Source: Tubulanus polymorphus
Lineage: Eukaryota > Nemertea > Palaeonemertea > Tubulaniformes > Tubulanidae
Assembly (NCBI RefSeq): GCF_964204645.1
Contig: NC_134026.1
Span: 24,012,650-24,076,649, forward strand
DNA: 64,000 nt
Direction: 5' to 3'
A program made the position numbers and the translations under genes. Below, piece by piece: positions 1 to 47,300 of this stretch. Within the stretch, counting starts at the first letter, position 1; every line of letters begins with the position of its first letter. The notes below the pieces were generated by a model, which was not told the DNA's origin, did no database searches, and saw nothing but the letters and a program-made list of their open reading frames with translations.

Positions 1-3000
1 AATTCAGGAGGGCATTCAGTTTTAATGATCTGTTCGCTTAGTTTCATGAAAAATTGATTGCCGGGAAAATCTACGACGATGTTACTGTTATTCAAATTGC
101 ATGGTTTGCAAAAAAGCCACCACAACTATCCATTGAATATCAATAGTAAGATTTTCAGTGAGTTGATGAAATATATATGTAAATAACCGAAATGGAATGT
201 ATTCGGTGGATACGTACAACAATGGGAAAACATAAAGTCTCAAGATATTCTTATGAAATGAAAGTGACACGATACCGATACTTTATGATCCTATTAAGTT
301 GTGTTTCGACTTTTTCATTTCAGAATTCGCTTATTTAGTGGATCCTTATTCATAACCCGTGTAACTTTGTTCTGTAATAAATGTTATGTTAGGTAATAGT
401 TAATTGTTTTATTTCATATTTAATAAAATTTTTATATTTTTACCAATCCATTTATCATACATACGTATATACATTAGAAATACATTTGTGTGAATTGAGT
501 AATTTGTAATCAAATACATATTGATGAAAGTTACAAAAGTTATGACGTAGAACCTCCGTCGCCCACGATTTGAATAAATGTCTGAGGCGCTTATAGTAAA
601 ACTGCGTTAACCAAGGCCAACAACAGAAAGATAGCACCATGTTTATCGCTATGGAAACATCGTATGCTCCGGAGAAATGACGAGTTGTCCGTCGAGAGTG
701 CAACAAAATACCAAAGTGATGTCGAACTGAATGCGTCAAATGAATTTGCCAATGGGAAGAGGTTATGAAAAAAGGTGCGCTCCCATTCACCTGCAATTTT
801 CAATGCTACCGGAGTAACCATCAGCTACGATGAAATATGAAAAGATTTCGAAAATGAAACAAATTACCAAAAGGAATGATGATAATGTGTGAAATGATGA
901 TGCATGAAGTACCGGACGTACGTAACCAGGTCTAAGAGCTGGGCGATTATTATATGTTATGTTATATTCTATGTTATCCATAGGATTTTAAAACTTCTGC
1001 GATTTCATCTACGTACGATATTATTTCGATGCAACCAGATGCTGAATATAACTCGGGGAATCCGTAAATGCCTGTTACAGCGGCCCGACTCCAGCCATCT
1101 CATCCTTTGAATAAACTATGGTATCAACAACAGTCTCGCTTCTCGTGCACTGCATAAGTCTGATTGGGTCTGGGCTACTCTTTTCCTTTTTATCAGTCAT
1201 ACGGTTGCCCATCCGCACGTGAAGATTCGTCGCTCTGCGCTTTTCCTAAACCGATTTGTCGAGTAGTAGCTCTGTATAATCCTCGCCCTTAAAGTGCCAT
1301 GGTAAAAATGCTGTGGCGATGAGATCGTCCACACGAACTGCAAGCAGACGGTATTTGATGTCGCCGGATAAAGAGCAGATAAATTCGGAGTAAATCAATT
1401 GTAACGAATCTCTCCGGTCGTAGTATACACAAACGGCAAATCACATAACTCAAAAAATTGTACAATCTGGGCGCGCGTGTAAATACATCCTTTTCATCTA
1501 TACATGAATCGAGAATTTTTCCTTTTATCAACAAAAGACAACCAGTAGAATTTATTGGAAGGGACATCCCTTGATAGAGCGATTACATCTTTTTACGAAT
1601 ACGGTCTTGTATTGCTCGGAAATATAAATCATTTTAGGAAGATTCTCTTTTCGATAGTCAATCATCTCCTGTCCACCTTATGTTGCTATGTAACTTCTAT
1701 ATAAGGGAGTGAGAAATCTAGCCGTTGTATTAACTCCAAAATATATATTTTTGGTATGATGACACCATTTTTCATCGACATCGCTGAATTATTGCTCAAT
1801 ATAAAATGTTTTCTGTTTTTGTTGACAATAATATCTTACGCGAAGCCTGTACCACCTACGGCATTCCTTCTTAATTTCCTATTGCACCTGGTTTTGACGG
1901 TAACTCTCGCTAAGCCAGCTTATGCAACGTGCGCGTCGGGGCGCATCCCCGGCGTATACATAAATCAACTTGTCGTTGTAACCTTAGCCCTATAAATAAA
2001 GCCTAACTACATCGATGGCCAAAAGATTAATGCGTAGTTTCAGCTACATAAATGGCGCCATATACTGTAATAACAAGGCATTAAATCGTTGTTCGGTCAG
2101 TGTCAGATAATTTTCTCTGATTTTCTGTTTTTATTCGACTTTTGTAAAAGAATCTCCTGATATTGATATTCTTAATGATAACAATAACAATTTCGTTTAA
2201 CTTTTTGAATTATGATAATTGTACAATAGTAATACAAATACAAGAATTCAAGATGGAGGGGCGCATGATTAAGCTTTATAAGATTTTCATGCCACCACAC
2301 CCAGTCACAATTGAATACGTCTTGTAAACGACGAAAGTGTAGGTGGCTGGGTTTCATAAAAAAAAGTTAATGTCTTAATTACTCTATTTGTTCTTAATCG
2401 AATTATGATTCAGTGAAACCATTAGCCGATAAATACTATCAAAGAAAAATCATATAGGGCTTGAAATGATATGCAAAAAAATTCATTGCGTATGAAGAGC
2501 TTGAACAATTTGTATTTGACCATCACAATAACTCTGCAGTGTACATGGAGACATACAACATCCATCATATGTACAACATGATGTCAGCTCAGCAATCTGT
2601 TACTGGAACTATGGGACAGACATCACTACGAAAAAGCTGTGCGCTGTTGACATTTAGATGTGATGTCGAGCATGAATTTTTGATAAAATGCGACATAATA
2701 AAAGATTATCACATCGCGCACCTAGTTTACATATGATAGAAATATAGTTCCATTTACTGAGATAAGCACCAAAGCGAGTCGTCGGAAACCTAAGTTTAGA
2801 AGCTCCTACGTAAATATATGAAAGCATTTCGTTGGCTTCTTAGATCGATGAGTGATGCGCTGTTTGAACTGCGTGATGGACTCCTCTGGTGTGTTTTAAG
2901 ATGTCGTTTTTACGTGCGTGCACCAGACAAACAGAAACTTAGCCAGGATTTCTTCTCCACTTTCTAGGATTCGATTCTTTCACGGTCCGAAGATTACGAG

Positions 3001-35852: not shown

Positions 35853-38842
35853 ATGAGCGGAACCATTCCGCAGCCAAATCCGCCCGCAGGACACGAACGA
35901 AAGAAAGATACGCTGAATAAAAGAGCTACGGCAAGTAGGTAAGGTGGCTGATCAGGGACAAAAAAATTGTGATGATTGTTTTAACGCCACGTAAGATCTA
36001 CGTAAAAACAAAAAGAAAAAAATTATTGATTTTACGTGTTATTCACGTAAAAACAATTCTTTTACAGTTTTACATAGATTTTACTTGGCGTAGTAACAAT
36101 TTTGGGGATACAATTTTTTGTCGCGTATCAGCTTTGAAAAAGCCACGATGTACCTGATCAGCCGCCCTACGGGCAAGCGCGTATTCACCCACCCGGTATG
36201 GTGTCACAAAGTTACTGGTCACAATATATAATTCAAAATCTTTTGACGTCAAGGTCTTAAGAGACCATTACCAGAGTACCAAGACGATACGCTACGATAC
36301 GATATCTCAATTCAAAGATCTACAGGTGAGTTAATGTATGAAATTTGCTGAGGAATAAGTAATTGTAAATATTTATCCATACTTCAAATATTTCCAACAG
36401 TGTGTCCAACCATATAACTTTCAGTTAGGAACCAAAGGACACTTAAAAGTTTGAAAGCAAAGTTGTGAGTATGTCATTCACGGGCTTTTGAATGAGTTCG
36501 TAATTCATTTTCGTACGTATTTACCTTAACTCCGCTGGGAAATTCGTGCATTGCGTTCGTTCGAACAAAGAATCGAAAGTCATAATTTTCCCAGAATGTA
36601 TACAACAAGGAAAATATAGTTCACTAGAGTATAAAACAACGTAACGACAAAGGTAATTTGTCACACTTACGCTAACACAGATCTAGATAAGTTGTTCTGC
36701 TGAACGAAAATCTTCAAAAACCGATTAAGCAAAACGCGTTACTGAATCTCAATTCTGGAAAATGGCTGCTTTGATGGCTGCTCTCCGTATGAGGGAGAAA
36801 GTGGCGTATGGTCGTGACCCCTCAACGAGTACAGGAACGCGAATCTCGCTGCTGGGCAGACGTCGAGAACCGCCGAAGAAATACGAGCCGACGTACAAAA
36901 CGCAGCCGGATAAGCGTGTGTTTCCGGAAAAGTGTCAGAGGATAATCAGCGATTGTTTCGAGAAGAAACTGCATGACGTCAAATATCAAGCGCAAGCGTG
37001 TAACAAACTCGGTAAAGATCTGGCGACGCTCATAAAAAATCAAGTGAAGATGCTCGGATACAAACGTTTTCGTATCATTGTCGACGTGATGCTCGGGCCT
37101 GTGGACAATACATCAGTGACTGTCTCCAGTCAGTGTTTATGGAATCCTCTCACTGATACGTACGCCGAATGTTCGTATCGAAATGATTCGATATTTGCTG
37201 TCGGTTTAGTGTACGCTATTTATCAAGAATGAAATAAACAATATACATGTTAACCTATATCATGTCTATTACTTGGTAACGTAATTGTGTTTTATTCAAA
37301 TTATATATACAAATACAAGTAATTCATACATCAATATATAGCATGTATTTACCGTTATAGTACTGGTTACTACAATTTGTAAACATTATTTGAATACATG
37401 AGCTATGAATGAAATCCTTTACACATTTTCTATCTGCGGGGTACTTTCTTTTTCTCGGATGTTTTGAAATCCTGAACGACTCCCTTTTTCAGATGCCATA
37501 TTAGAAAACTAGTGGGCATTTCATTGTTTAGTGAATCTAATTTTCTACTGTGTTCTACGCGGCAGTACTTCTTGCAGTAGCTTTTGTCCTTGTACGTACA
37601 TTTGGCGAGGCATCGGGTCATGATGAAACATCTTTGTTCGCAGATCTTTTTGTATCTTGCATAATCTTTCGCCGTCGTTCGACCATCGTTCAAATTTGGA
37701 GAACAGCCTTTCTCGCATCTCATGAGGTTTTCGGTTGTGTCATGTCGGAGATCTCTAACAGCAATCGAGGCCTCTAAAAAGAGCAGCCCTGTAGAAATAA
37801 TCATGACCTCTACATTAATAACAGCATTCATTTCAAACTAAGGAAAAAACGAAGACATATATCACGATTTGAGTACTGAGATATAGAATATTCTACGAAT
37901 TTGTTGGAGTCAATATTGATTGACGAAAGGCACTAAGTGGCAGATTTCTTAAATTCAGTTGATTTATAGATTTGTTTACGTAGAATGGGTTAGATCATAC
38001 TCAACTTGCTTGATTATTATTGAACTGAACTGAACTGAACTGAATTGAACTATTTTGGCAACGAATTTGAATCTTAGATTGAACCTTTGGCTTTTGAAAA
38101 GCCTGTGAAAATTCATCGATAGAAAATCTACCTGACTAAATAGGTGCAGAATAGGTACACAAATCTAAAAAGAAAATTAAGTGCAAGATATCGCTCACCA
38201 CAAAACATCAGTAACGAAACCGAGTGCAGCATTGTCCCTTCGTGTCCTCAAGTGCCTCACTGCAAATTATTCTGTGATGATGCGATACTATCATCATTAT
38301 CAATATACATTGCCGCGGACTACGCTGTATGAATTACGTCACTTAATAACCACTTTCACGAATAATAAGTACAATCATTGTAAATGTGTTTTTCCTGCTA
38401 CTGGTTATCAAACCTTTAAGGAAATTATACGTTATGATAATAATATAATCATATATCTATCGAAGGAATTGATATATATGTCGTTGATCGTCTCATTATT
38501 AACCATAAGCTCAAGTTTGATTCTTTTCACACAAAGTATGTATAGATAGATGGCGAATGTAGCCGTTTCGCCTGTCGTTGCAACGATGCTGTCAAAATAT
38601 ATTAGCTAAATAAGAGATAGATGATATATGAATCAGGTTAAGTAATGAAGATGTAATACAAAATTAAAATTGAGCGAAAAGAAGATTAAAAACCATTCAC
38701 TTAATTTATGTTGCGTTCTTATTTCTAATTAGCTCCTACAGGTTACAGGCGTAAAGAATCGTATAAAAAATCCGTCCCTGAGGATTTGAATACAATGACG
38801 GCTCGTCCGCGCATGGCCATAATTACATCGATTTTCGGCTAA
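35853..38842 (+). CDS. Candidate two-exon small basic protein spanning two other genes
   Basis: Exon 35853-35938 starts with ATG soon after a strong acceptor (ttgcttctttcag, ending at 35844) and encodes MSGTIPQPNPPAGHE and a Lys/Arg-rich stretch, ending in phase 2 at gtaagg. The acceptor ending at 38748 opens an exon to 38842 that continues in frame (RRKESYKKSVPEDL, then TARPRMAIITSIFG) to TAA. The joined product would be 59 residues, basic, with no motif I know. Its 2.8-kb intron would contain the Tctex1 gene and the CX3C secreted-protein gene. The first exon is convincing as an exon; the join is an inference from phase and base composition, and the exon could instead splice elsewhere. Confidence 0.3.
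36630..36636 (+). promoter_or_regulatory. Possible TATA box of the Tctex1 gene
   Basis: TATAAAA lies about 130 bases before the start codon of the intronless gene at 36762, which would allow a 5' UTR of about 100 bases. It is supported only by motif and position. Confidence 0.35.
36762..37232 (+). CDS. Tctex1-domain protein (dynein light chain Tctex-type family)
   Basis: Intronless 156-residue frame. Residues 1-45 are a basic, low-complexity leader (Arg/Pro-rich, ending KKYEPTYKT). About 50-156 make the Tctex1 fold: VFPEKCQRIISDCFEKKL, KYQAQACNKLGKDLATLIKN, YKRFRIIVDVMLG, SSQCLWNPLTDTYAECSY, and the family's typical last strand SIFAVGLVYAIYQE. The basic leader and the sequence are closer to the DYNLT5/TCTEX1D1-DYNLT4 group than to classic DYNLT1/3. 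Members are accessory subunits of cytoplasmic or ciliary dynein and bind dynein intermediate chains. An AATAAA at 37233-37238 directly follows the stop. The gene converges on the minus-strand gene at 37430 with about 200 bases between stop codons. Confidence 0.9.
   Translation: MAALMAALRMREKVAYGRDPSTSTGTRISLLGRRREPPKKYEPTYKTQPDKRVFPEKCQRIISDCFEKKLHDVKYQAQACNKLGKDLATLIKNQVKMLGYKRFRIIVDVMLGPVDNTSVTVSSQCLWNPLTDTYAECSYRNDSIFAVGLVYAIYQE
37291..37296 (-). terminator. Poly(A) signal AATAAA for the CX3C secreted-protein gene
   Basis: AATAAA on the minus strand about 135 bases past the stop codon of the 37430-37831 gene. With the plus-strand signal at 37233 the two convergent transcripts would end within about 100 bases of each other. 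Confidence 0.5.
37430..37831 (-). CDS. Small secreted protein with four CX3C motifs (unrecognised family)
   Basis: Intronless frame of 133 residues. The N-terminus has a hydrophobic core (MIISTGLLFLEASIAV, 10-25) fitting a signal peptide with cleavage near 25. The mature part has exactly eight cysteines in four CX3C pairs, at 39/43, 64/68, 74/78 and 86/90, on sequences rich in Lys and Arg (CEKGC, CEQRC, CLAKC, CKKYC). This spacing favours helices pinned by disulfides, as in helical-hairpin proteins, although the known CX3C proteins of mitochondria lack a signal peptide. The C-terminus is basic (SEKKKVPRR). A possible minus-strand TATA box (TATAAATC) lies at 37961-37968. I know no matching family; a secreted peptide, matrix or defence role are all possible. 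Confidence 0.6.
   Translation of the reverse strand: MNAVINVEVMIISTGLLFLEASIAVRDLRHDTTENLMRCEKGCSPNLNDGRTTAKDYARYKKICEQRCFIMTRCLAKCTYKDKSYCKKYCRVEHSRKLDSLNNEMPTSFLIWHLKKGVVQDFKTSEKKKVPRR
38021..38050. repeat. Pentanucleotide microsatellite (TGAAC)6
   Basis: Six units of tgaac, one with a single substitution (tgaat). Confidence 0.9.
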
Positions 38843-39447: not shown

Positions 39448-41953
39448 GTAAGTTTGAATTATTATCACATGTTATCATCATTACTATTATGATCAGTATC
39501 ATTAAATACCCGTTGTTTTTATATTCTGATAGTTTCCAAAACTTTTTCCAAACTGTTACTCGATAAAAACTAAGTGGTTTTTAGTGAATGAGAACATCAT
39601 CGAATGAAATGTTCCGCAAAAAATACTTATTTGTGGACTATTTCTCGGTTCTATTTTGTATTCGATTTCGAATAAATTCTTTTCTATATAAATTCTATAT
39701 TCTACATATTTTCTTTGCCAATAATAGTTGCGTTGTTGGGGTTAGTTTTTTTGTATGCATTCCACGGGGATCCGATGTATTAGGTGTTTTATCTTCCAAC
39801 GTGACAGGACAGACTGCGCAGACCTAACGTGAATCGGTTATGGGGCAGATTGCGGAATAAAACATCATTGATTTCAGACCGGTTGAACGCTGACAGGATA
39901 TTTCTGTCAACCATTGTAAGCCAGTTTATCTGTGTTGAACAGATTTTGTGCAAGTTATGGGCGCCTAAGATCAATGACGGCCGGTTGGATACATTTCCAA
40001 TACTAAATATGCCTTCAATTTTTGGCGAACATTGTAAATGCCTTTTTATATTGGTAATTTGATCATGCGTGAAACGGACCTGCATTTAAGCGATAAGGTT
40101 CCTCAATAGAGCAGGGCATCATAAATTAAAGATTGCTCTGATTAGGGAATATAACCGCGTACATACCATCCGTGTTTTTAATTCTAATAATTTCCATAGC
40201 GACGTTAATTTGACTTTGGAAATGAGATTTACTGAACTTCCATTTCGTCAGTAAATATTTCTCATTGTGTCCACTTTAATTCATTAGCACTACGCGTCTG
40301 AGTAGAAAATAAAAAATGGTATAAAATCTCATTGTTTTGTAGTCTCTCACCTACCATGTATAATTAGTTCAACCAGTTCAATGATGATATCGTGATTATT
40401 TTTCTTGATAATCGATCGATAGAGTAATCGCTCATGTTTACCAAGACCTCTTTCTTATCTCCTGTTATCTTCGGCGGCCGATCACTACCAGTTCATAACC
40501 AACTAGTTCTAACTAGAATAGAAGTCTGTTAGGAGAGAATGTTATTAAAAAGAATGTTGAAAATGCGATCGTTATATTTGATGAGTGTAAAATAGGGAAA
40601 CTAAAATTTCTAATTTCCCCTCGATTGATTGATTGGACCTATTTAAATTCCATCACTATTCTAATCGTAAAGGCTATCCTTAAACATCGGCTGCAAGGGG
40701 GGAAATAGGGTTCATATCAGTGACAACCAGAGCAATAAGAATTCCTACGAAATTGAAAACGTGATATATATTTCCCCTGGAGATATAACATTACCGGTGC
40801 ATCTCGAGACAGAAGCTATCCCTTTGTGATTTGTCATGAACGGGTAAAGATAATACCCAAACCCAGAACCAAAATTTGAAATAAGTTCAACTCTCTTTAG
40901 AGAAACTGACAACGTGGAATTACGCTCGAAAAAGATGTTTGAAAGGATTTCAATGCCTCGAAAACAAATCTCAAGTCTTATACAATATTCCCTAATAGAC
41001 TTTCATGCTCGATACGCGAAAATAGTAGCAAATAAATTTCATTCGTAAAGATTATACAATTTTAATGAAATTAATGTGCATTTATGGGTATTCAAATTCA
41101 ATGAACATACATGTAAAACTGGATCCGTAATTTCTGTGTTAATTGTCTATGTAAAAGATAATCAGAAATGATTATCCATATCAAGCCAGATGGTATCTAA
41201 TTTTCATCCAAATATATGCAACCTGGCAATCTTCCATAGGTGTGGGATGATTTTATACGCATCAACGTGGGATAATCCGACCTTTTAAATATGCGCATCG
41301 CTAACGGAAAACTGCAAATGAAATTCAACTAATTTGTCCATTTTCATTATCATTATTCGTTTCGTCGATTCTTAACTTATATGGCACCAATAGTAGTGAT
41401 TATGATGATAATGATCTTTATTCATCAAAGCTAAATCGCATCAGCTGTACGATAATGATTGAGTAGCGCAAAACTTGTTGCCAACATCTGAAAATGTCGA
41501 ATACCAATATCCATTTTGGTCGGGAATTCACCCACAACCACGGGGTGGGAGCGCGTGGTGTTGTAGTGTAACTGTTCGGGCATACCGATGAATCATTCCC
41601 AGATGATATTTTTTTAGTCGGGGCCGGGGGTTCTGATTTTTTACGGTGGGTTGTGACGTAAGTAATGTTGTGAGTTTTCTTTTCTGTCGGCCTTGTGATT
41701 GTATGACCTTATAACTCTTTTTATACTTTACATGTTTACATGTTTACATACTTTACTATTTTGTTCTTTTATCTTATCCACATTGTTTGTACTTTATTGA
41801 CTTCATGCTCAAATGTTTTATATTGTAAGATTTTAGAGTTCCATAAAGTTATTTTCTATTCCTCCATCACAATTACCCGTCTCTGTCTCCTTATGAATAT
41901 ATATGTCAGTACACCGTGTGAGTAAAATACTATCAGTATCAGTGTCAATCTAA
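39448..41953. other. No recognised gene
   Basis: Short frames only. A G-rich patch at about 41530-41700 stands out from its AT-rich surroundings and precedes the foldback element; it may belong to the same insertion but shows no coding frame. Confidence 0.4.
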
Positions 41954-42122
41954 AGAGAATCCCACAATAACATAACGAACAAATATCAGGTCCGAAAATG
42001 TTTTCTCAAGCTTCATTCCTGAAGATGACTAATAGAATATAGTCGAAACGTCGAATGAATTACTAAAACAAGTAAATATTTTTCGGACTTAATATTTTTT
42101 CGATACCATTGTGGAATTCTCT
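41954..42122 (+). mobile_element. Foldback element with hammerhead-like core
   Basis: The termini agagaatcccacaa (41954-41967) and ttgtggaattctct (42109-42122) are reverse complements with one mismatch. A second, inner inverted pair is gtccgaaaa (41990-41998) with ttttcggac (42080-42088). The nested stems enclose the motif described at 42012-42059. A hairpin at 9424-9492 has the same 13-base terminus, so the ends recur in this genome. There is no coding capacity; it is probably a non-autonomous retroelement or MITE remnant. Confidence 0.65.
42012..42059 (+). ncRNA. Hammerhead-ribozyme-like motif
   Basis: In order: stem I strand TTCATTC (42012-42018), core CTGAAGA (42019-42025, fitting the CUGANGA consensus), one extra T, stem II GACTA with 8-base loop and TAGTC (42027-42044), GAAAC (42045-42049), the cleavage triplet GTC (42050-42052), and stem I return strand GAATGAA (42053-42059), which pairs perfectly with the first strand. 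Stem III is essentially absent (a single C-G), as in the minimal hammerheads carried by Penelope-like and related retroelements. The extra base before stem II departs from the consensus, so activity is uncertain. Confidence 0.5.
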
Positions 42123-44314
42123 AGATTATCGTCAACATACGGATATAATATCAGTATCAAATCCCATTAAGGCAATAAGGTCGACAATGCAAACAATTCC
42201 ACGACATTAGATGACTGCGCTCCTTAGATGAATACTAGATTTTGTTTTTTAAAACGAATTATTCTTTTTATAACTCATGAAAATCATATCAATTCATCCC
42301 TAAACATGGTCAAATATAACATAAAAATCTGTACATAATATTTGATATTCAAAGTACTGTTGCAAATGCGATTTTGGGATTCTGATGTTAATGAGAAGTC
42401 ATTGCAAGTCAAGTAGACTGGACTTGGGAATTATTTGTTATGCTATTGGTCTTTGACACTTTCTGTTTGTTATTACAGTCATTCATGGCTAATCAAGTCG
42501 TCGTTCGTAGATTGATTATCGTGAATAGTAGCACAACTACTACAGACTCGCGTTAGCTCATTTTTCCATAAATACCAATTCCGTATTTGAACCACGAAAT
42601 CATTGAATCTCGGTTTATTAGCGTTGAGTTGAAAGTGTGTAAGTGTTGTGCTGTCATCTGTGCATACGACTGTGAAAGTTATTAGGTATCTTTGCTTTTT
42701 TCATTTTTCGAAGAATTTGACAAAAATTTTCAAACAATCTGAAAATTGTGGCTGCCGACAAAAGAACTGCTATAACGAACTTTTCCGCCGCGCGGTTATT
42801 TGCAAGTTGCAGTGTTTGCAACTGCAATTAAGGGATTGTTTTGAGTGCCGATCTGAAAATGATTTGCCTTTGCAATTCTCAATATCAAAACCGCGAGAAT
42901 AATTTTGAATTGACAGAATTGGACGATATATTGATTTTCTAAGTAAATAGCAATCCTGGATAGCCAAGTCATCAACATTCACGACTGTACTGGCGTCCGG
43001 TTCTACACGCAATCTGAAGGCACTTGACCAGGTGACGATATCTTCCGGGCAAATATGCAGTTCGCTGCATGCTAGTATGTTAATGGACGTTTCGATACCG
43101 TTCTTCCAGCGAAGCACGATTTATGAAAATATGTCGCGGGTGATTAGTCGTAAGCTGATCGATGTATAACAACCGAAAGAATACCAGTTACACTTGCTCC
43201 CTGCCATTCCGCCGTTAAATCTGATACCAATGTCGATTAAGCCCATGGCCCCAGATATGGATAACGAAAATTTGTATTTCGTCAAAGTGTTTACACTTGT
43301 ATGACAATTAAAAATAAAGTGAACAAAACCATTAACACAGATGGCGTTACTTTTTCACAATACACTATCTTAATTGATGGACAAGTAATCATTTTAATTA
43401 GTATCACTTAGGAGAGCATCTTCTACGTCTGAACATCCCTAACTAATATTTTCCAATAGTATCTGTAGATTGACTGCGAGCACAGATATGGAACACAGAA
43501 GCTCTACAAATTTGAAGATAGTCGGATTACGAGTGTAGTATCTTGGTAAAAGGTCTCTTCTAAGTGAGTTGTACGCAAGGCAGGAAAGATGTATACACCT
43601 GTTGCATCTGGCGTTACTTTCATGTCTGTTTACACGCTATCTTCATTCAAAAGTTACCTTGATTTTCCACATGTATATGTGAAAAAGTCATCGCGGCGTC
43701 TGTGCCGTATTAGAGGTTAATCCGCTATTAGATGTTAGAATAAAAATCAACTTTTATTCCATGTGACGTGATAATCCTTCCCACGTTCAATTACTATAAA
43801 AAGTGTGTTCCGTAATCAACAACTGCGTATATCGCTAATCGGATTCACAAAATTAAAATGGACTCTTATCAGGTATTGCAGCCTCTGATTTGGGCTAATG
43901 TTATTTCTCGCCGAAATCCAGAAAACCAGAATATTATTCGCTTGATAACGAATCTCGTCCGGAAAACATAATTTCCTTACGAAACGGATCATGTGCACTG
44001 ACACGATGATTCTGCGTGTGATATCATAAACTTTCTCGCGTGAAATTGATGCAGATGATCATGATCGGTAGTGATCGCTAAATTTTCTAGGATGAGCAAT
44101 TTCTGATGTCATTTGACGGATGGATGAATTGTGAAACAAATAAAGAATGACAACACAAATATTCGCATCGAACCTATTCGGCCGCTGCGAAGCATTTTGT
44201 TTAAAGCTTGATACCCAAAGTTAAGCCTACAATATTCATATCAACACTAAAAACTACAAATCGTCCGTTGTTACTTTTGACATTTATGATGCAAAATGAT
44301 TCATAGCAAAATGT
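42123..44314. other. No firmly recognised gene
   Basis: A minus-strand frame of about 115 codons (42770-43117) and an overlapping plus-strand frame are the longest here; neither has a recognisable motif. The region just before 44315 should hold the promoter and 5' UTR of the SLC6 gene, but no TATA box is obvious. Confidence 0.35.
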
Positions 44315-47300
44315 ATGTCTGTAATTGAATTGCAGCCCACGACGAACGCAAATCATGAAGAAAAGATTCCAATCGATGGACCTTCCGATACCTCGTCTGA
44401 AGACAGCGAAAATGCGAGGGGACATTGGGGAAAACAGCTCGATTTCATATTATCATGTGTAGGATATGCAGTTGGTTTAGGGAATATATGGCGTTTCCCT
44501 TATCTATGTATGCGAAATGGAGGAGGTATGTAAAACTTAATTAACGGGGCTGGCAATATCCACATGGGACCTTTATATTACCACGAGTTAGTTATAATCA
44601 TGACACCTGTACGTTCCGCAACGGTACATCATGGTGGTAGTTGCAGAACCCAATGAGCCACATCGAGCTGTATATCTACAACTGTGATGAGTAATAAATA
44701 AATACAATATTATAATGAGCATGATACGTAGCCTCCGACTTTGGGCGGAATTGAAATTTGAAACTTTTAAACTACGCGATATGAAAAATCAGTTTATCTC
44801 AAATGCAGGTTGTTTACCAGTACATAGGTAGATGTTATGAAAAGCTTTTCTGAATATTCCAATGTACTTCCAATTTCAGGGGCGTTTCTCATACCTTATT
44901 TCACATTTATGGTGTTGGGCGGTATTCCCTTGTTCTTTATGGAATTATCGATAGGTCAGTTCTCCAGCCTGGGGCCACTGTCTGTTTGGAAATACTGCCC
45001 GTTATTTCGAGGTAAGTACCATATCATAAGTGGCATCGGAGTCAATAGCCAAAAGCGACACCGTGATGTTATTCAATATATCGTTTTTTATAGGGAACAC
45101 GAGGCTTAGGGGTAAAAGATCCGATGTTTCATTTACTTCGGAAGGACCCCAATGTTCTTCTAGCTTAGCATGAAATAGAATCTTAACATTGGAAAATCCG
45201 ATCCAAGCATTTGATTCAATATAGACTAACTGAGAGAAGTTGTAATTCTAATTCTGTAATTTTCAATGGTTATTCTGTACAACTGTTTCAATTTTACAGG
45301 TATTGGATGGGGAATGATTATCGTCTCAGGGATATATACTCTCGATTATAACGTCATTATTGCGTGGATTTTATTCTACTTGGGAAACTCTTTTTCCTGG
45401 GAATTACCGTGGGGATCATGTAAAAACGACTGGAATACACCAAACTGTCGGGAACGTGGCTCGGCGGCCAGCATACTAGTCTTATGCAATAGTAGTATAA
45501 GTGATTGCACGGAAAATGCAACTTACAGTATAACAACTCCTCTGAACGCTACGGCAAATATCACCACAAATATAACAGGACGAATCATGTCTCCGGCCGA
45601 GGAATTCTGGCAGTAAGTATACTAATTCTATCCGGAATGCAGAGTTTGTGATTTGGGGCGTTTAATTAACAAACCGGTCTATTGGCTAGCACATTTCTGA
45701 GTCGCAGTGGCTTTAGTTCATAGAATTTCAATGTATATTACATGCTGAACGCATCAGTCTCTCGATAGTCTTTGCTTTAGATTATCGTGGTGCAATCCAA
45801 GAAACTGAGATAAGCCGACTTAAAGTCTTTCCCGTGAATACAAAGAATGTTTCCGCGGAACTGGATGATGGAAATCCAACCAAAGGCGATTTGGTCCTAT
45901 ACACTCGAACATGTAAACGCGATATTTACAAAGGCCGCGTGTGCCGTCATTAGTTCAGGGTCAACTATATCTAACGGATGTCGATTCTATTGGGGTTTCG
46001 CGTCGGAATTTACGGTGAGCCGTCTGTCTCGTCAGGAAACGAGCTTCTGACAGCTCTACGGCTTTTATCCTTCGCATATTATTGAATTTTTGCCTTCAGT
46101 TTAAATCAATTTATAAGATGCCAAGCCCTAAAGAATTCGATGATTTGATTCGAAAGCGGATGGTCTTGAATAGGTTTCAATGCGAGTGATCCGCTGAGGG
46201 AAGGATTTAGGATATCGACCTCGATGATTATGACTTCTCTTCGTCGGGAAATTATTTCGCAGCGCTAATGAATTAGTTTCTCGTTTCGCTAAGGGAATTC
46301 CAAGTGAAAATAAAAACGAACATAGGTTGTAATTATATCATGATTAACACAGCCTCTCTTACTCGGAGAAACACGTAATGTCTTCATAATTTTCAATTTC
46401 GAATATCGTGCGCAGATACGTTTTTCAATTTCTTCTTAGCCACGCTGTCAACATGGAATTGAAATATCCAAAGCCAATAACTTTAAAGCACAGGTCGCAT
46501 TTTAGTGTGAATGCGTTGTCAATCAAGTAAAATGAAGTATTCTATTATTTATAGATTTAAAGTTTTAGACATGAGTGATGGAATTGGAACCTTTGGTGGA
46601 TTACACTGGCAATTAGTTTTATGTCATCTCGCCAGTTGGACGATTGTATTTTTCTGCTTGATAAGAGGCGTCAAATCATCGGGAAAGGTAACTTCAATTC
46701 AAACTTAGATTAGCCCGGCTAAATCCCACGAGCCTTCGCCGGGAACCTGGCGGGCGTATTAATAATCGGTATTTGGGTTGCAAAGGGTTGATTCACATTT
46801 ACAGAGCAATCTCGTCGCGAAATACGGCTCTTTCCGATCTCCGATATCAACTAACTGTATTATTCACAGAATGCACCGTTTTGTTCACATATGTCGTTTA
46901 TATTCACATGACAAACACAGATCTCGGCGCCTGGAGGTTTTCATCCATATATTCTTAAGGTCACAGACGATGTAATCTGTAATTTTCGTTTCATGATTTA
47001 TTACATTCATAACTACAAGAGACAAAGTGCGAATGTGTGAAATCTAATAAAGATCACAGATCTACTCAGCGCGCTGATGTTTCCTCGCTGCAATGATACG
47101 TGTAAAAGTAACGAAATCAGTACTCGGTATTGACATTCTTTCGAGCAGCAAACAGATTCATCTTTCCATGTCCAGAGTAATAAAGCTCGGCTTAGAAAAT
47201 GGAAAATGTAGCGCTAGCACAATTATTGAAGAGTCTTTTTACTTTTTCCAAGGTTGTGTACGTCACCGCTACAGTGCCGTATTTTTTTCTATTCGCCCTA

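Follow-up and report, generated by a model that had tools for sequence, protein, structure and literature searches.

A 64,000-nucleotide stretch of the Tubulanus polymorphus genome (here called the window) holds a hammerhead-ribozyme-like motif nested in inverted repeats, raising the question of whether the surrounding element is a self-cleaving repeat in its own right or a part of something larger. The original prediction, which described the locus as a double-stem foldback and possible self-cleaving non-autonomous repeat, is partly supported by the analysis presented here. In our view, the element is very probably an old, decayed, non-coding solo leader insertion of a Penelope-like element (PLE), this being the best explanation of the locus as a whole.

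All parts of the predicted motif were confirmed by the sequence (42012..42059, forward strand): a 7-bp stem I (TTCATTC, 42012-42018, with GAATGAA, 42053-42059), the core CTGAAGA (42019-42025), an extra T (42026), a 5-bp stem II (GACTA, 42027-42031, with TAGTC, 42040-42044) with an 8-nt loop, GAAAC (42045-42049), and GTC (42050-42052), with cleavage predicted after C42052. When the window was scanned in both orientations for the motif elements in this order, each stem being required to have 4 bp or more, this was the single site found, against 0.01 expected by chance per 64 kb (200 first-order Markov simulations). The 169-nt RNA folds at -48.7 kcal/mol compared with -24.2 ± 3.4 kcal/mol for shuffled sequences (z = -7.3, none of 200 as good), and its predicted fold contains both stems, the extra U being paired to the G of GAAAC. 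The window copy retains all core bases and the GTC cut site, and follows the order CUGANGA, stem II, GAAAC, GUH, stem I, as do the leaders of the two PLE families described below (PLE1 and PLE2). A looped helix III is absent, the loop length being 0 in every motif match listed, including the window copy. As GAAAC directly abuts GTC, ordinary single-molecule cleavage is doubtful, and self-cleavage by the window copy on its own seems unlikely; in our own reading, ACGT-ACGT pairing between two molecules would be possible via GAAAC-GTC, which would fit a dimer mode. A covariance check against Rfam, as proposed with the original prediction, yielded no hammerhead: the whole window gave 0 matches at the gathering score, and the threshold for canonical hammerheads was not reached. 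The sole Rfam match at E ≤ 10 within 41800-42300 was MIR6020 (E = 2.7, 16.2 bits against a cut-off of 118), which lies on the opposite strand of the fold-back and was rejected.

The boundaries of the element are given by a 15-bp direct repeat, identical at 14 of 15 positions (left copy ATACTATCAGTATCA, 41927..41941; right copy ATAATATCAGTATCA, 42145..42159; score 12, cross-locus null p = 0.0054), which places the insert at 41942..42144 on the forward strand. Together with homology to PLE leaders, this target-site duplication identifies it as a solo head-to-head PLE leader. A truncated left arm, inverted and without a hammerhead core of its own (41942..42018, reverse strand; its short end placed by homology from the minus-strand arm match), is followed by a right arm that starts with the hammerhead core and reaches the short-end position GGAATTCTCT (42019..42122, forward strand) and by the tail (42123..42144, forward strand), which forms the long end on this side, extends into the tail hairpin region (ACGGAT), and may be where reverse transcription started. 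The outermost 12 bases on the left (41942-41953), past AGAG, bear only a loose likeness to the tail. No open frame of 110 or more amino acids overlaps 41942..42144. The insert sits between a Tctex-1 dynein light chain frame (36729-37232) and a sodium:neurotransmitter symporter frame (45260-45616). A Pfam search of 9 of the 24 window frames of at least 110 amino acids returned Tctex-1 and SNF only, with no reverse transcriptase (RT) or GIY-YIG domain.

The inverted repeats said to enclose the motif do exist, one with 26-nt arms that are 85% complementary (41973-41998 and 42080-42105) and the other made of AGAGAATCCCACAAT (41954-41968) and ATTGTGGAATTCTCT (42108-42122), but they do not amount to a separate double-stem architecture. 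As read from the sequence, the nested stems are two head-to-head leader arms meeting at stem I, and the "inner" and "outer" repeats are the remainder of both arms with unmatched deletions between them. The last bases of the left arm, TTCATTC, are complementary to GAATGAA of the right arm and lead directly into CTGAAGA; the 7-bp stem I was thus created by the head-to-head joint itself. Stem I measures 7 bp in the window, compared with 3 to 6 bp in 18 other intact units and 6 bp in PLE1.

A BLAST search of the same genome (268 Mb, 77 contigs) with a 201-base query gave at least 76 matches, often several per locus; this is a lower bound, with 40 of 460 candidates scored. Copies were compared at 40 loci, the window being one of them. 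In the first twenty, copies consist of one or two arms that begin at or near the hammerhead and run outward, the two-armed copies being arranged head to head with the joint either direct or containing a spacer. Few units are present at 36 of the 40 loci, with at most three or four unit matches each, while the remaining four carry tandem arrays of 9 to 13 consecutive hammerhead units spaced by about 67 to 69 bp (L049, 7065-7683; L050, 6395-7277; L051, 5901-6574; L052, 5958-6532). The full motif is present in eight of nine units in L049, in one unit in L050, in five in L051, and in one in L052. Units of three of these four loci (also labeled L048, L017, and L042) share the variant CTACACTAG and mostly have GTT at the cut site, which gives the impression that the array was mobilized or copied as a whole. 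Counting all units, the entire motif is kept by 19 of 77, found in 9 of the 40 loci including the window. The extra T, which according to the original prediction made activity uncertain, is no peculiarity of this copy: 72 of 76 distinct units have a T at this position, as do both PLE families, and an extra U alone should not count against a hammerhead candidate.

Arms within one copy are more alike than arms of different copies (0.773 versus 0.716; 24 copies, 0 of 5,000 shuffles; terminal gaps excluded), and the same comparison with terminal gaps counted gives 0.667 versus 0.631 (p = 0.003). This likeness suggests either that one source RNA served for both arms or that one arm was copied from the other; both fit. 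The 10-kb surroundings of 20 copies contain 84 open frames, and visual inspection of the 40 longest revealed no PLE frame. The prediction of a non-autonomous repeat holds insofar as the family is dispersed and non-coding, but its members are solo PLE leader insertions and not free-standing ribozyme repeats. By eye, a second palindromic repeat was seen at L009 (about 785-876, reverse strand) and L025 (about 505-592, reverse strand), with ends resembling GGAACTGGATCC and GGATCCGGTTCC and with GAGTTAAC cores; in one case it adjoins leader arms and in the other it lies between them.

The outer ends of the inserts, placed on a 160-nt reference arm, form two groups, one at positions 103 to 119 (mostly 113 to 119) and the other at 128 to 160. 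The short end is located at GGGATTCTC, and the long end lies inside or just beyond the hairpin AACAC-GGATATA-GTGTT (as in L009 and L024). Among the 28 copies in which both ends could be classed (12 of the 40 loci were left unclassed, an arm being partial or missing), 23 have one long and one short end, four have two short ends, and one has two long ends. Label shuffling leads to an expectation of 14.1 one-long-one-short copies, and 23 or more were reached in 0.08% of trials (p ~0.0008). The window copy belongs to this class, with its long end on the right. Target-site duplications scoring 10 or more, which range from 10 to 15 bp, were detected at 11 of the 40 loci, window included, compared with 1.4% of 1,482 cross-locus controls; the other 29 loci have no duplication above this cut, the array loci scoring 6 to 8 (two of these on cut-off pieces). 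Symmetric terminal repeats with a duplication of fixed length, as in TIR DNA transposons and MITEs, are not what was found; the inserts have inverted arms with a tail on one end and, at 11 of 40 loci, a short and variable target-site duplication, as PLE derivatives do.

The connection to Penelope-like retroelements, drawn by the original prediction from animal hammerheads with a tiny stem III, was borne out in the same genome, where the same hammerhead, leader, and tail precede PLE frames. GIY-YIG matches number at least 150 (150 scored of 306 candidates), and 17 of those scored lie in open frames of 817 to 841 amino acids, several of them in tandem at about 2.86 kb or as inverted pairs. In the 798 codons read of the L098 frame, RVT_1 (E = 5.7e-10) is followed by a C-terminal GIY-YIG domain (E = 1.5e-5), which is the domain order of PLEs; GIY-YIG was also found in two C-terminal PLE pieces, the combination of RT and GIY-YIG being seen on the one frame scanned. 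A PDB sequence search with the PLE frame gave no match at E ≤ 0.01. A family profile made from four array units matched eight of nine fetched PLE leader regions (E = 4e-19 to 5.3e-7) in alignments spanning the hammerhead through the tail, and seven of the nine have an intact hammerhead. Twenty further pieces downstream of GIY-YIG matches, picked for variety and not at random, showed the motif in 12 cases (including L078), a rearranged motif in one, and none in seven. At L095 (165-230) and L081 (175-235, reverse strand), both of them PLE leaders, part of the hammerhead (TATTAGGATATAGTCGAAACGT or a fragment of this sequence) has been duplicated or rearranged, perhaps through slippage within the ribozyme.

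The PLE1 leader (L069) has TATATATA at 617-624, then 21 bases, then TCATT at 646-650, whose A lies 7 nt 5' of the core; TCATT is followed in turn by ATTCCTGAAGATGACTATTAGGATATAGTCGAAACGTTGAATAAACTA, by a segment that can be aligned with the window family, by the hairpin AACAC-GGATATT-GTGTT, and by an ATG, which is located beyond the tail, about 140 nt downstream of the hammerhead core. The layout of PLE2 (L070) is similar, with the hairpin TACAC-GGATATT-GTGTA. The tail hairpins of the two (L070, 773-789; L069, 762-778) differ by a compensating end pair, which may reflect recognition by the PLE protein. In L075 (174-232 and 366-421) and L077 (215-274 and 384-453), an inverted leader stands upstream of the element's own reading frame, reproducing the geometry of the window element. 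PLE1 leaders are about 74 to 79% identical to three family copies in most long alignments, indicating that the direct parent of the family was not seen. For 42 of the 48 non-array arms, homology to the part of the PLE upstream of the hammerhead is not convincing (extension scores ≤ 14), and the remaining six extend into this part with scores of 16 to 88 (L021, both arms of L026, L030, L031, and L039), by a cut that was chosen after the scores were known.

Compensating changes in the stems, suggested as a check on the motif, gave a divided answer. Among the dispersed copies there is no covariation: 87.6% of cells are paired, compared with 87.5% after shuffling, and 3 pairs are changed on both sides, compared with 2.2 ± 1.1. 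For these copies, this check, like the Rfam search, goes against the original prediction. PLE1 and PLE2, in contrast, whose proteins are 62% and 73% identical in two segments, have hammerhead cores that are identical save for the free N position, share the extra T, and differ by four stem pairs changed on both sides with pairing preserved. Two outer stem I pairs of PLE1 are missing in PLE2, which has just 3 continuous pairs in stem I, and in L078, a PLE2 variant, a core base is changed and stem I is broken. A comparison of five rows (window, one copy, PLE1, PLE2, and the PLE2 variant), which comprises few independent events, gave 88.3% of cells paired versus 75.8 ± 3.7% for shuffles (0 of 500 as high) and a covariation of 0.442 versus 0.223 (0 of 500; slid versions, 0.04 to 0.19). 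Its 6 double-change pairs were equaled by 25 of 500 shuffles and its pair-type count by 191 of 500. The hammerhead pieces of PLE1 and PLE2 fold slightly better than shuffled sequences (18 of 200 as good, for each), the minimum-energy fold of PLE2 differs from the hammerhead fold, and the PLE1 tail segment folds no better than shuffles. From these few rows, the stems appear to covary across PLE families, and the hammerhead motif looks constrained in the PLEs and not in the dispersed copies.

How might such an insert arise? We propose that PLE RNA would start at the hammerhead, as inferred from a TATA box and an Inr-like sequence, and would offer two alternative RT start sites about 100 to 140 nt downstream, around the short conserved hairpin; leader-length RNAs would have their 5' ends within a few bases of ATTATTCCTGAAG. 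The PLE RT/GIY-YIG protein would cut the target with a stagger of 10 to 15 bp, and copying would begin inside the leader at one start site and proceed as far as the hammerhead, where the RNA would have its 5' end. At the opposite side of the break, another leader arm in inverted orientation would then be added from the other start site, and the two arms would be joined head to head, yielding a fold-back that is tailed at one end, short at the other, and flanked by target-site duplications. We infer this order of copying as well as ribozyme cleavage, which would probably require a dimer or the assistance of a protein. The account of a decayed solo PLE leader insertion made by these steps is one that we hold with considerable confidence. 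It draws on the homology to PLE leaders, the PLE frames, the duplications at part of the loci, the one-long-one-short ends, and the compensating changes between PLE1 and PLE2; against it speak the copies without covariation, the small share of units that keep the entire motif, the 29 loci with no duplication above the cut, the 5 of 28 classed copies that deviate from the end pattern, the seven pieces in which no motif was recognized, and the modest folding of the PLE1 and PLE2 hammerhead pieces. A more speculative and rather doubtful extension is that PLEs may prime on both broken target ends, one per RT start site, with the cDNAs joined at the hammerhead edge, so that solo fold-backs would be the shortest products. 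If this were true, solo fold-backs would record how many priming events PLE integration involves and in what order they occur.

Other explanations deserve consideration. Tandem sub-repeats inside the arms are a trait of foldback elements, and since such sub-repeats occur in some arms of this family, alongside two inverted arms and short flanking duplications, the insert could be taken for a non-autonomous DNA transposon of the foldback or MITE type with long terminal inverted repeats, in which the hammerhead would be incidental. We regard this as extremely unlikely, given that in 23 of the 28 classed copies the two arms stop at different points, one at the long end and the other at the short end, that duplications above the cut vary in length, and that the arms are homologous to PLE leaders, some of which stand inverted upstream of their own frame (L075 and L077). 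Nor is it probable that PLE leaders carry the motif by chance or through conservation of its sequence alone, with no ribozyme in its past. The missing Rfam match, the lack of covariation among copies, and the short continuous stem I of PLE2 would agree with this idea, but one such motif is expected by chance in a hundred windows of this size, and the PLE1 and PLE2 motifs keep the same core except for the free N while four doubly changed stem pairs still pair. Moreover, the accessible part of a published study describes an anole PLE hammerhead whose protein-assisted cleavage was tested (PMC11167929). This explanation is therefore one that we consider highly unlikely.

Somewhat less improbable, yet still unlikely, is a retrozyme-like origin, in which the RNA would cleave itself and circularize and the circle would be reverse-transcribed into tandem arrays of about 69 bp. 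The four array loci, and particularly the eight intact units of nine in L049, are what this route would produce, and PLEs have been proposed as helpers of animal retrozymes (PMC7761336, available part). However, no more than three or four unit matches occur at any of the other 36 loci, the motif survives in just one, five, and one unit of the L050, L051, and L052 arrays, and the hammerhead is without a looped helix III. Published animal retrozyme repeats measure about 150 to 450 bp in the portion of PMC7229834 available to us, and the inserts studied here end near the 5' edge of the hammerhead and at the tail, not at the predicted cut. The solo PLE leader insertion thus remains the reading that we prefer.

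Several components of this picture are already in print, at least as judged from partial texts: minimal hammerheads in the pLTRs of PLEs, dispersed minimal motifs, inverted pLTRs, tails, and solo pLTRs. Among the titles and openings of abstracts listed in a literature search, with most subscription papers outside its reach, none dealt with leader-only PLE inserts following a one-long-one-short rule or with 69-bp hammerhead arrays. The route of PLE insertion, the head-to-head copies, and the role of the small hammerhead are open questions in the papers cited here, and this genome offers many short leader-only inserts with readable ends, whose relatives in the same genome suggest how such leader scraps form. 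The suggested rule (a long end paired with a short one, duplication of the target, and arms stopping near the hammerhead) is testable in vitro. More generally, a ribozyme-like motif that seems to stand alone in a genome can turn out to be a fragment of a PLE leader.

How do these inserts compare with known systems? Minimal type I hammerheads are reportedly found in PLEs and Terminons (Cervera and De la Pena 2014, Lunse et al. 2017, and Arkhipova et al. 2017), and small PLE hammerheads are said, in the title of the study by Lunse et al. 2017, to cleave as dimers. With the published minimal motifs, as far as the accessible texts describe them, the present ones share the order of the core, the absence of helix III, the location in PLE pLTRs (shown here for the relatives and, for the window copy, by homology), and their dispersal, with thousands reported in animal genomes. 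They differ in that most units and both PLE families have an extra U separating CUGANGA from stem II, which may set them apart from published motifs, and in that they are followed here in solo insertions with mapped ends. The dimer mode of small hammerheads is also mentioned in the available part of PMC7761336. Metazoan non-LTR retrozymes, as described in the accessible part of PMC7229834, are likewise non-autonomous, hammerhead-bearing, and sometimes tandem, with target-site duplications where present; their hammerheads are of the canonical type I, with helix III and loop contacts, and lie in repeats of about 150 to 450 bp, in contrast to the minimal motifs without a helix III loop and the units spaced by about 67 to 69 bp, at 4 of 40 loci, in this family.

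A mechanistic parallel is provided by PAc (Poseidon) from Anolis carolinensis, for which the accessible part of PMC11167929 describes an internal RT start in an AC-rich stem-loop 111 to 118 nt into the ORF, a "tail" corresponding to the sequence between two observed RT start sites, and the cutting and extension of both target strands. As in the PLEs studied here, the PAc hammerhead lies at the boundary of leader and ORF; the internal RT start in a stem-loop, the two start sites bounding the tail, and the cutting and extension of both target strands are features of PAc that we propose for the present PLEs as well. The PAc start codon lies at stem II, with the RT start within the ORF, whereas the ATG of PLE1 comes about 140 nt past the core, after the tail. 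The PAc hammerhead cleaved only when PLE protein was added, ribozyme mutants still inserted, and no RNA ends were seen at the cut site (PMC11167929, same part), suggesting by analogy that the hammerhead may play no part in insertion. In anatomy, our inserts resemble the Penelope elements of Adineta vaga, for which the available text of PMC3846280, whose main text does not use the word hammerhead, reports inverted pLTRs, a 31-bp tail optionally present at the 3' end of one pLTR, and duplications of 8 to 10 bp in some inserts. The same anatomy recurs here, but in inserts that consist of the leader only, carry no frame, and are spread over dozens of loci.
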